NCBI GenBank assembly: GCA_014238155.1
Contig: JABABQ010000015.1
Span: forward strand, 1 to 64,000
DNA length: 64,000 nt
Source of the DNA: Rhizobiaceae bacterium
Lineage (GTDB): Bacteria; Pseudomonadota; Alphaproteobacteria; Rhizobiales; Rhizobiaceae
Direction of reading: 5' to 3'
The notes beneath the pieces are model-generated. The model did not search any database. It was not told the origin of the DNA and saw nothing but the letters and a program-made list of their open reading frames with translations. This document shows positions 58,348 to 61,972 of the stretch, in pieces; the first letter of the stretch is position 1; the number at the start of each line of letters is the position of its first letter. Position numbers and translations under genes: made by a program.

Positions 58348-58399
58348 TGACGTGAGCCCATGGCCTTCCTACATACAGGTCACACACAAATGGAATCCA

Positions 58400-58759
58400 A
58401 TGATGGCCGAAGCCGCAGAAATTACTGTTCCCGAAGGGGAAGTTGTTGTCTCACCATCCGCTGCAAGGCGCGTGGCGAAGATTCTCGCATCGGAGCCTGA
58501 CATGACTGCTTTGCGGGTATCCGTGGAAGGCGGTGGTTGCTCTGGATTTTCATATAAATTTGACCTGACGGACGACGCTCAGGAAGACGACGTGGTGCTT
58601 GAATCGGAAGGCGCCAAAGTGCTGATCGACCCAATATCCCTGATGTACATGGGGGGTTCAGTGATTGATTTTGTCGACGACCTGATGGGCCAGAGCTTTC
58701 AGATCAAAAACCCCAATGCAACGGCCAGTTGTGGCTGTGGCACCAGCTTTTCTATGTAG
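58400..58759 (+). CDS. erpA: Iron-sulfur cluster insertion protein, ErpA/HesB type
   Basis: A-type carrier that passes [Fe-S] clusters to apoproteins. The 119 residues show the three ligand Cys: GGGCSGFSYKF and the C-terminal ATASCGCGTSF. Start is one of two consecutive ATGs (58400 or 58403). It is divergent from dgt and followed by a strong terminator. ErpA and IscA types cannot be told apart by eye, but position and length fit the ErpA-like protein near dgt in rhizobia. Confidence 0.9.
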   Translation: MMAEAAEITVPEGEVVVSPSAARRVAKILASEPDMTALRVSVEGGGCSGFSYKFDLTDDAQEDDVVLESEGAKVLIDPISLMYMGGSVIDFVDDLMGQSFQIKNPNATASCGCGTSFSM

Positions 58760-58788
58760 CCCCCGCACGATTTTCATCAATCAAAAAT

Positions 58789-58820
58789 AAGGCCCGCTGG
58801 GAGCGATCCGAGCGGGCCTT
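58789..58820. terminator. Bidirectional terminator between erpA and the NCS2 fusion gene
   Basis: The arms AAGGCCCGCT (58789-58798) and AGCGGGCCTT (58811-58820) are perfect, with a 12-base loop. It separates the erpA stop (58757-58759) from the convergent permease gene (stop at 58845). An A-rich run on the left could give the minus-strand transcript a T tail. Confidence 0.8.
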
Positions 58821-58844
58821 CGCGTTTTATGCCAACCAGGTCGA

Positions 58845-60962
58845 TTAAGACTTGGCAGCCTTTTGACGTGCGCGATCAGACTTGGCACGTGCCGGTTTTC
58901 CAGCCAGCAGATCTTTCGCCTGTTTCTGCCAGTCTTTGGCGTATTTCCCGCTCTTTTCAGCATAGCTGACAACATCCGCGGCTTTGGTAAGATCCGCGAT
59001 GCTTGCCTTGGCAATGCTGGAAAGCGTGCCGTAGCCGAGCTTGGTCAGCTTCTTGCTCAGAACCGGACCGACGCCATCAATCAAGGCGATATCGTCCTTG
59101 ACGCCACTCTTGCCCGCTTTGCCGGCTGACTTGGGGGCCGCTTTGGTCGGCGCGCTTTTTGCAGCAGACTTGCTGGCCGATTTAGCCGCAGTCTTTTGCG
59201 CTGCGGGCTTGGCAGCAGATTTCGCTGCCGAGCTTTTGCTGGTCGCCCTAGGCGACTTGCTCGACGACTTGCCTGCTGCCTTGCTGACCGACTTGCTCGC
59301 CGACTTGCTCGCTGACTTTTTAGCTGGCGAAGGCCGGTTTGCCGCCGAAGAAGCGCCACCAGACTTTTTTGCTGCAGGGGATGAACTACCTGCACCTCCA
59401 GATTTGCCGGCCGACTTACTGGTCGATCCTCCCGCTGAACCTGCATCAGGTTCTGATGAACTTGAGCGCGTAGATATTGTGCCGGAACTCGCCAAAGACG
59501 CTGCAGTAGATGCAGAAGTTGTCCCGGAACCAGCACCGCTGGAGGCTGAACCCGCATCGCCCAGACCACTGATCTGAGTTTCATGGGCGCCACTGTTGCC
59601 ATCATCACCATCAAGGTCTTCAGGCAATAACAGGTTCAACACGATTGCAATTGCCGCTGCAGGCAACAGACCTGATGTCAGCAGAATTTTCAAGGTGCCT
59701 GGCATATGCTGAAGCGCATCTGGCACCAGTTGCAAACCCAGTCCGACGGACAGAGCGGTGGCAAATATCACCATATTGCGACGGTTCCAGTTCACATCAG
59801 ACAACATGTTGACACCGGCTGAACAAACCATGCCGAACATCACAATCACACCACCACCAAGCACATTGATTGGCACGGTATTGATGATTGCACCGACCTT
59901 TGGAATAAGACCGCCAATGATCAGGAAACATGCACCAATAGACACCACGTGGCGGCTCATCACGCCGGTCATGGAAATCAAACCGACATTTTGCGAAAAC
60001 GACGTATTTGGCAGACCGCCAAAAATACCTGCAATTGCGGTACCCAGACCGTCAGCATAGGTCGCACCCTGAATTTCTTCATCGGTGGCTTCCCGTCCCG
60101 CACCACCCTTGGTGATACCAGATACGTCGCCGACTGTTTCGATTGCTGAAATAAAGGCCATCAGGCACATGCCGATGATAATTGCCCAGTTGAGGCTGAA
60201 ACCCCAGCGGAATGGATTGGGCAGTTCAAAGAAAGCCGCCCCGCCAACACCTCCGAAATTTACCTGTCCCATAAACAGCGCGACAATGTAGCCAGCAATA
60301 ATACCGACGAGCACGGCTGCAACCGCTGTGATACCCTTGCCGAAGAACTTAACCGCCAAAGTTACGATAATTACGATTAATGCCGGGAACCACATGGCCA
60401 AAGAACCAAATGCAGGTTTACCCATTAACGGCACGCCGCCAGCGGCATATTGAATGCCAACTTTAACCAGCGCCAGACCAATCATCAAAACGATTAGTCC
60501 GGTCACCAGCGGAGGCAGTGCAAATCGAATTTTCTTAATGAAGGTACCCAGGATCATGTGGAAGACCCCACCGATCATTACTCCTGCCATGAGCCCCCCC
60601 AGCCCACCGGCGCCAAGACCTGCGACTGCAGGAATCATGACTGGCAAAAAAGCGAAACTGGTTCCCTGAACAATCGGCAATTTTGCCCCAACAGGGCCCA
60701 CGCCAAGGGTCTGGATCAGTGTCGCAATACCTGCAAACAGCATAGACATCTGAATCATATAGCGCATGTCGGGGAAGCCGAGAGCTCCCTGATCAGACCC
60801 GAAACCGATTCCTGCTGCACCGCAAACGATGATCGCGGGGGTTACATTACTGGCAAACATCGCCAGTACATGTTGTATCCCCAATGGTACCGCCTGCCCT
60901 AAAGGCGGCATATAGTTCGGGTCGCGGAGTTGCTCCGGCGTTCCCAATGAATTGTCAGACAT
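58845..60962 (-). CDS. NCS2 nucleobase permease fused to a Ser/Ala/Lys-rich tail and helix-hairpin-helix domain
   Basis: Residues 1 to about 447 are a nucleobase:cation symporter-2 (xanthine/uracil permease), with GQAVPLGIQHVLAMFASN in helix 1, the NCS2 signature SFSQNVGLISMTGV, and roughly 12-14 hydrophobic helices. Then comes a 170-residue low-complexity tail rich in Ser, Ala, Lys and Gly (SKSASKSVSKAAGKSSSKS) like the C-terminal tail of histone H1 or bacterial H1-like proteins. Residues 623-705 hold a helix-hairpin-helix module, DDIALIDGVGPVLSKKLTKL, followed by basic residues. Total 705 residues against about 450-500 in normal permeases. The reading frame is continuous and no stop divides the parts. 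The tail should face the cytoplasm; a nucleic-acid-binding role is inference. The HhH module alone occurs as an appendage in other alphaproteobacterial proteins. Confidence 0.93.
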   Translation of the reverse strand: MSDNSLGTPEQLRDPNYMPPLGQAVPLGIQHVLAMFASNVTPAIIVCGAAGIGFGSDQGALGFPDMRYMIQMSMLFAGIATLIQTLGVGPVGAKLPIVQGTSFAFLPVMIPAVAGLGAGGLGGLMAGVMIGGVFHMILGTFIKKIRFALPPLVTGLIVLMIGLALVKVGIQYAAGGVPLMGKPAFGSLAMWFPALIVIIVTLAVKFFGKGITAVAAVLVGIIAGYIVALFMGQVNFGGVGGAAFFELPNPFRWGFSLNWAIIIGMCLMAFISAIETVGDVSGITKGGAGREATDEEIQGATYADGLGTAIAGIFGGLPNTSFSQNVGLISMTGVMSRHVVSIGACFLIIGGLIPKVGAIINTVPINVLGGGVIVMFGMVCSAGVNMLSDVNWNRRNMVIFATALSVGLGLQLVPDALQHMPGTLKILLTSGLLPAAAIAIVLNLLLPEDLDGDDGNSGAHETQISGLGDAGSASSGAGSGTTSASTAASLASSGTISTRSSSSEPDAGSAGGSTSKSAGKSGGAGSSSPAAKKSGGASSAANRPSPAKKSASKSASKSVSKAAGKSSSKSPRATSKSSAAKSAAKPAAQKTAAKSASKSAAKSAPTKAAPKSAGKAGKSGVKDDIALIDGVGPVLSKKLTKLGYGTLSSIAKASIADLTKAADVVSYAEKSGKYAKDWQKQAKDLLAGKPARAKSDRARQKAAKS

Positions 60963-61177: not shown

Positions 61178-61972
61178 ATGAAGATCGCCTCCTGGAACAT
61201 AAATGGCATCAAGGCACGTCATGATGTGCTGCTCGAATGGTTGCGGCAATCTGCTCCCGACATTGCTTGTCTGCAGGAAATAAAGTCTGTCGATGAGGCT
61301 TTTCCGGGCTCCCAGATTGAAGAAATGGGTTACAATGTGGAGACCCACGGCCAGAAGGGTTTTAACGGAGTTGCCATCCTGTCAAAACTGCCCTTCGACG
61401 AAGTCAATCGTGGTCTGCCGATGCTGGCGACCAGCACGATTGAGGACGAACAGGCGCGTTTGATTGAAGGGGTTTTTTCTATCGATGGCCGAGCCCTGCG
61501 GGTGGTTTCACTATACCTGCCCAATGGCAATCCGGTCGATGATCCGCGGAAATTTGATTATAAACTGGAATGGATGGACAGGTTGTACGCCTGGGCCGAA
61601 GATCGATTAGCACTCGAAGAAGCGTTCATAATGGCGGGCGATTATAACGTCATCCCGCAAAACGACGATTGTTGGGATCCGCATTTCTGGCAGGGTGATG
61701 CGTTATTCAGACCCGAGACTCGCTCACGTTTTGAAGCTCTGAAAAATCTCGGCCTGACAGAAGCCTTGCGAAGTTCATCCGATGCGTCTGGTATTTATAC
61801 ATTTTGGGATTATCAGGCTGGAGCCTGGCCAAAAAATCACGGAATTCGAATCGATCACATGTTGCTTTCACCCGAAGCGACGCTCAGTTTTGGCGGGTGC
61901 GAAGTCGATAAGTATGTTAGGGACTGGGAAAAACCATCCGATCATGTACCTATCTGGCTGGAATACAATTAG
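61178..61972 (+). CDS. xthA: Exodeoxyribonuclease III
   Basis: The AP endonuclease/3' exonuclease of base excision repair. The 264-residue protein has SWNINGIKARHDVLLEWL (Asn7), CLQEIKS (metal Glu34), MAGDYNVIPQNDDCWDP (Asp-Asn pair), and the C-terminal SDHVPIWLEYN with the catalytic His. Length and motifs are typical. It is divergent from the permease gene and stands alone. Confidence 0.96.
   Translation: MKIASWNINGIKARHDVLLEWLRQSAPDIACLQEIKSVDEAFPGSQIEEMGYNVETHGQKGFNGVAILSKLPFDEVNRGLPMLATSTIEDEQARLIEGVFSIDGRALRVVSLYLPNGNPVDDPRKFDYKLEWMDRLYAWAEDRLALEEAFIMAGDYNVIPQNDDCWDPHFWQGDALFRPETRSRFEALKNLGLTEALRSSSDASGIYTFWDYQAGAWPKNHGIRIDHMLLSPEATLSFGGCEVDKYVRDWEKPSDHVPIWLEYN

Follow-up and report, generated by a model that had tools for sequence, protein, structure and literature searches.

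PhaH, a phasin of Caulobacter crescentus (NCBIfam NF045508), carries a C-terminal helix-hairpin-helix (HhH) domain that, according to a review, binds DNA non-specifically and places granules on the nucleoid (PMC13052382). Here we describe a nucleobase permease from a Rhizobiaceae bacterium that has the same general layout, an N-terminal working part followed by a C-terminal HhH module of the same family. It is encoded in a window of 64,000 nucleotides, which is the whole stretch of DNA that was analysed (assembly GCA_014238155.1, contig JABABQ010000015.1, positions 1 to 64,000). The hosts of the two modules differ: that of PhaH is a storage-granule protein, whereas that in the window is a membrane transporter. 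The window protein scores 22.4 bits against the PhaH model, far below its cut-off of 250, and the phasin part is absent, hence it is no phasin.

Two solved sequences contain the module, protein-O of the Dinoroseobacter shibae reaction centre–light-harvesting 1 complex (RC-LH1; 8YY9 chain O) and 9WQV chain a. Both resemble the permease in having a membrane-embedded N-terminus, a long flexible loop and the module at the C-terminus, but protein-O is a small membrane anchor of a photosynthetic complex and not a transporter. The NuoE-type module of the window genome matches 8yy9_O with an E-value of 1.1e-21, and the matches of the permease module are weak (0.19 to 8yy9_O, 0.086 to 9wqv_a). The authors of the protein-O structure, in which no more than residues 8-59 could be traced, point to C-terminal regions of a similar kind on NuoE and other proteins and describe what these domains do as obscure (PMC12079452). 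The extended forms of NuoE, S2 and L21 (NCBIfam PRK12373, PRK12311, PRK12278) belong to the same appendage family as the permease tail, although their hosts are subunits of complex I or of the ribosome and the modules of S2 and most L21 are acidic, unlike that of the permease. From these NCBIfam models and the two papers (PMC13052382, PMC12079452), the module is already known on NuoE, S2, L21 and PhaH.

Ordinary NCS2/NAT permeases have a complete transporter body, as the window protein does, but neither linker nor HhH domain; we take UraA, XanQ and PbuX to be of this type. Neither an NCS2-HhH fusion nor the pattern of body exchange described below was found in the open-access literature searched, outside which subscription papers mostly lie. 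What appears to be new here is an NCS2 permease as an HhH host, and a tail that is kept while the body is exchanged.

Architecture of the permease fusion

A single minus-strand frame (58845-60962, ATG to stop) encodes all 705 amino acids, divided as follows:

59622..60962, minus strand: NCS2 nucleobase:cation symporter body (xanthine/uracil permease family), residues 1-447; PF00860, TIGR00801 and TIGR03173 matches, AlphaFold2 helices up to residue 445
59103..59621, minus strand: linker, residues 448-620; composition and charge, AlphaFold2 predicted local distance difference test (pLDDT) below 50 for residues 452-620
58848..59102, minus strand: HhH module, residues 621-705, net charge +9, with a GVGP hairpin, a DW..QA signature and a basic C-terminus; PF14520, AlphaFold2 fold, HhH fold matches, charge
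58845..58847, minus strand: stop codon of the fusion; frame translation

The body is a full-length, above-cut-off match to the NCS2 family models and is thus a member of that family. PF00860 covers residues 22-414 (E 1e-82, 278 bits against a cut-off of 27) and TIGR00801 residues 20-445 (314.1 bits, cut-off 291.8); the xanthine permease model TIGR03173 (pbuX) covers residues 27-447 and falls just under its cut-off (412.3 bits, 414.15). The 173-residue linker consists to 87% of K, A, S, P, G and T, holds only five residues of the F/W/Y/I/L/M set, and is split in charge, with a net -7 over its first 40 residues and +23 over the remaining 133. AlphaFold2, run on the whole permease with a 28-row alignment, returned a helical body, an unstructured stretch from 452 to 620 (pLDDT below 50) and a folded module at about 621-690; the linker is accordingly predicted to be disordered. 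Modelled alone (four rows), the module forms five helices with a mean pLDDT of 77 and is predicted to adopt the HhH fold. The matching profile, PF14520 (HHH_5, residues 628-664), scores 24.7 bits in the whole protein, below the 27-bit cut-off, and 28.0 bits, above it, for the isolated module; profile match and fold together place the module in the HhH superfamily.

The fusion in relatives

We scored 102 homologous permease loci, the relatives being the best 80 of 155 found in genome contigs. Fourteen rows are tailed, representing eight genomes plus six duplicate loci (in G000, G006, G008, G009 and G010) that are protein-identical over the shared stretch; one locus is cut by a contig end and 87 are complete and untailed, among them two remote paralogues (33% identity) and, from within the genus, four loci (G006 contributes its second copy; G001, G004 and G012 one each). 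The tailed permease is present in eight of the 15 genomes of the genus (G000, G003, G006, G008, G009, G010, G011 and G013; G006 is a two-contig assembly), with no stop in frame and with body identities of 74-97% between pairs.

Because seven other genomes of the genus have the same unbroken architecture, a local frameshift or assembly join is ruled out, and on this comparison the permease-linker-HhH fusion is real, as an earlier sequence-only reading of the window had claimed while naming frameshift, stop and misassembly as possible flaws. That reading had also placed the boundary near residue 447 and held that permeases of this family normally end after the last membrane helix. Both statements hold: the body profile ends at 447, and all 87 complete untailed loci stop within 27 residues of that position. 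Two separate genes in relatives, a further concern it raised, were rejected, as untailed relatives simply stop and no downstream tail gene was seen within the fetched flanks; among frames of at least 60 residues in loci L012-L111, only the tailed permeases score with the first module profile. It is thus extremely improbable that the fusion stems from read-through of two genes or from an error in sequencing or assembly. Nothing was found in favour of such an artefact; none of the eight genomes sharing the architecture has an in-frame stop, and the seven compared with the window all have the fusion beside the same exonuclease III-like gene. Moreover, the 258-residue tail in the window contains no methionine and hence no in-frame ATG, leaving GTG or TTG as possible starts.

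Among the loci examined, the fusion is confined to this genus. Three further genomes of the genus (G001, G004, G012) have an untailed permease, and four of the 15 (G002, G005, G007, G014) have no permease match at 1e-20, G007 being 61% complete with a 26-residue fragment. None of the examined loci outside the genus is tailed, and of 54 matching plasmid records none has a match covering 80% of the query. The suggestion that a tail shared by many orthologues would not be new holds in part: the tail is common to eight of the 15 genus genomes and absent from every examined locus beyond them. One genome assigned to this genus, G014 (0.9 Mb, 98% complete), has no match to the HhH module either.

A recurring HhH appendage

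The permease tail fits the definition of an appendage, an HhH module with a W..QA signature that follows a low-complexity linker on a complete host. The sequence-only reading had noted the module in other fusions of the clade, and this proved correct: in the window genome it also occurs on NuoE, L21, S2 and an oligopeptide ABC ATPase, with more hosts in the genus. Across ten modules from these hosts and the permease, D6, G13, G15, P16, L22, W61, Q64 and A65 are invariant. The ten-row profile gave 91 matches in 14 of the 15 genus genomes, or 82 distinct frames after removal of repeats, with hosts named by Pfam/NCBIfam scans of representatives and clustering: NuoE (14), L21 (13), S2 (13), oligopeptide ABC ATPase (10), NCS2 permease (8), two-module proteins with a hydrophobic N-terminal stretch (10), frames whose module lies close to the N-terminus (9), formate dehydrogenase gamma (3) and singles (2). 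Across the order, the module was found in 58 of 61 sampled genomes among the matches listed; the 109 loci taken from these matches (111 frames) cluster as L21 (31), NuoE (22), S2 (17), L19 (9), the depolymerase PhaZ (7) and ABC proteins (3). The other 22 include one RND pump and many small proteins whose N-terminus has a hydrophobic stretch. Of 150 genomes sampled across the phylum, 24 give a match at 1e-12, and every one of these belongs to the window's own class. Besides the permease, known hosts now include NuoE, S2, L21, L19, L15, ABC ATPases, formate dehydrogenase gamma, cytochrome c1, PhaZ and an RND pump. Judged by these profile searches, the HhH module is a recurring alphaproteobacterial appendage.

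L113, L198 and L199 are cytochrome b561-type subunits with a basic linker and an HhH module, L113 being formate dehydrogenase gamma (TIGR01583). Ten small proteins (L153, L194-L196, L200-L203, L206, L207) combine an N-terminal hydrophobic stretch, a low-complexity linker and two HhH modules, a layout like that of protein-O. In others the module lies near the N-terminus and a K/A-rich stretch follows (L152, L184, L187, L178, L191-L193, L204, L209); L152 and L209 represent the same gene, with L152 a confirmed ABC ATPase, and the rest are cut or unconfirmed. PhaZ, a polyhydroxybutyrate (PHB) depolymerase, ribosomal L19 and the RND pump carry HhH modules among L310, L321 and L317; L216, a frame that includes an EAL domain, matches the module four times.

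Origin of the permease tail

A profile built from permease modules only was run at 1e-14 on 151 genomes of the family and matched 12, one of them the window genome. Ten of the 12 matches found in the 11 other genomes are L21 tails; the remaining two, a cytochrome c1 and a ribosomal L15, are both in G207. Pfam confirmed the hosts. By BLAST the nearest module to that in the window is the L21 tail L327 (50% identity); in the module tree it is cytochrome c1 (1.29), followed by L21 (1.35). In the top listed matches, L21 tails of the window's family are 36-51% identical to the permease module, while the NuoE, L21, ABC and S2 modules of the window genome itself reach 30-33%, and L21 tails from the independent order census also rank close. 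These comparisons suggest an L21-type source, which remains just a lead because the nearest L21 tails were collected with the permease-tail profile, which favours them.

Among labelled hosts the permease modules form one group (support of 97 in the Shimodaira–Hasegawa-like approximate likelihood ratio test, SH-aLRT), but the G207 cytochrome c1 and L15 modules fall inside it; a single origin of the tail is therefore likely, not firm. The three permease modules of one of the two types, type B (G006, G011, G013), lie closer to two tails of G207, those of L15 and cytochrome c1, than they do to any L21 tail. Both G207 proteins (L325, L336) carry the module at the C-terminus, near the permease/L21 type.

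The tail stays while the body is exchanged

The tailed permease lies at a conserved locus, marked by two neighbouring genes that we take to be xthA and erpA:

61178..61972, plus strand: exonuclease III-like divergent neighbour, taken as xthA; adjoins the tailed permease in 7 of 7 other tailed genomes
58352..58759, plus strand: HesB/ErpA-type convergent neighbour, taken as erpA; adjoins the tailed permease in 6 of the 7 others, the exception being G009 (L013), where erpA lies outside the fetched flank
58783..58829, no strand assigned: GC-rich inverted repeat with T-rich flanks, a possible terminator between the permease stop and the convergent neighbour; read by eye

In two sister genera (G018, G021) this locus holds an untailed permease. 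A terminator pattern scan found only a shorter hairpin (58794-58806, minus strand) inside the inverted repeat, and the four terminator-like sites that the scan gave in total are no excess over chance (mean 3.3, standard deviation 1.7). The search for a riboswitch or other RNA element at the permease locus gave two sub-threshold matches only.

The body tree rejects a single clade of tailed bodies. On this tree of 92 bodies (8 tailed and 84 untailed, with L026, L027, L028, L111 and duplicates left out), tailed bodies need five state changes, at least four of them forced by well-supported branches. Between G011 and G013, identity is 94% for xthA and 96% for the module, but 79% for the body; between G009 and G011 it is 82% for xthA and 40% for the module, but 91% for the body. 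The body data reject the G006+G011+G013 clade supported by the modules (approximately unbiased (AU) test, p 2.6e-80) and the module data reject the G009+G011 pairing (p 1.1e-6), p values that are optimistic because the groups were chosen after seeing the data. A weakly resolved species tree, built from the cores of NuoE, S2 and L21, places G011 with G013 and G007, and G000 with G003. G006 has two copies at different loci (L018, L029), one tailed and one not; they share an identical stretch of 1,413 bases that breaks off just ahead of the point where the untailed copy has its stop codon.

These comparisons indicate that within the genus the tail follows locus and species and the permease body is exchanged. 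The sequence-only reading had pictured the tail as a mobile appendage; the appendage family with its many hosts agrees with that, but the tail is not a one-off, and in this genus it is the body, not the tail, that moves most visibly. Recombination in the shared body leaves a non-homologous tail in place, and so body exchange and tail persistence alone are no proof of selection for the tail.

Constraint and charge

The ratio of non-synonymous to synonymous differences per site (pN/pS) indicates that the permease HhH module is under constraint. In type A without G009 it is 0.014-0.23 for the module and 0.03-0.23 for the body; it is 0.29-0.40 for the module in type-A pairs with G009, 0.05-0.16 for the type-B module, and 0.55-0.66 for the module between types A and B, where synonymous sites are saturated. 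The permease linker gives 0.27-0.74 and varies from 99 to 229 residues among tailed genomes. Its charge pattern is present in all eight tailed permeases, with a net -5 to -7 over the first 40 residues and +10 to +31 over the rest, and the module is charged +5 to +9 in seven of the eight (-1 in G008).

These values bear on the view that the tail is a passive appendage, in which linker and cap alter the stability, crowding or turnover of the permease, or the basic linker contacts anionic lipids, the module has no specific ligand, and the tail spread by easy recombination among K/A-rich tails. We regard this as unlikely. A fast-evolving linker of variable length, the 87 of 87 complete untailed loci that manage without a tail, and the fact that homologous recombination inside the body by itself keeps the tail, so that persistence need not mean selection, all fit it; the constraint on the module, the presence of the tail in 8 of 8 genus genomes seen with the permease beside xthA, and the charge pattern kept in 8 of 8 linkers do not.

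Proposed function

We tentatively favour, at a little under even confidence, the idea that the tail is a flexible nucleic-acid tether that holds the permease near the nucleoid. The topology of NCS2 transporters is the basis for placing the permease C-terminus on the cytoplasmic side. There, it would end in the long flexible linker and the HhH module, and the linker would let the module reach many nanometres into the cytoplasm. Basic linker and module would bind nucleic acid non-specifically, most likely the nucleoid, and the transporter would thereby be held near the chromosome, or the places where it gathers in the membrane would be limited, in the style of PhaH. We infer, then, that the C-terminus is cytoplasmic, that the transporter works and that the tail binds nucleic acid, with the nucleoid as its partner; any influence on transport is likewise conjectural. 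The charge and predicted fold of the module are consistent with non-specific DNA binding, and the earlier suggestion of an appendage with a possibly nucleic-acid-binding tail is supported as an idea. Its further proposal, a special tie between nucleobase uptake and DNA or RNA, is unnecessary because the hosts of this module include proteins that have nothing to do with nucleobases. A nucleobase-specific role of the tail is likewise not supported, most module hosts being unrelated to nucleobases.

Several observations weigh against a nucleoid tether. Foldseek returned nothing with an E-value below 0.13. NusA AR2 is among the HhH fold matches, and HhH domains such as this one bind proteins. The tailed permease of G008 combines its near-neutral module with the shortest linker. 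Elsewhere in the family, modules are acidic in 30 of 30 sampled S2 (-1 to -9) and 9 of 9 L19 (-3 to -12) and mostly acidic in L21 (n=44, -6 to +3), while those of NuoE across the order average -1 (n=23, -8 to +7); among the membrane-anchored tandem-HhH proteins of the genus (n=10), the first module is +7 in five and -2 to +3 in five. DNA binding therefore cannot be the general job of the module family, and the charges give no support to it as a universal role.

The tail could instead be a protein-docking tag. The module would then bind a partner common to the hosts (the ribosome, RNA polymerase, a scaffold or another HhH module) and gather membrane complexes and ribosomes, the ligand not being nucleic acid. 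We consider this somewhat unlikely: NuoE modules from the wider order do not hold to the charge split, and the precedent, PhaH, is reported to bind DNA. A broader and quite speculative idea, which we think improbable, is that HhH tails form a shared address system. Acidic ribosomal modules (S2, L21, L19) and basic transporter and respiratory modules would pair with one another or with the chromosome, holding transport, respiration, translation and the nucleoid together; membership would be inherited with the locus, and the transporter would be exchangeable under the kept tag.

The appendage family places one small module on about a dozen unrelated host families, all in a single bacterial class. 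A natural test is at hand in the genus, where at the same locus the tail has been retained and the permease body changed. If the proposal is true, a solute transporter whose arm points at the nucleoid or the ribosome would connect the import of nutrients physically and directly with the inside of the cell.
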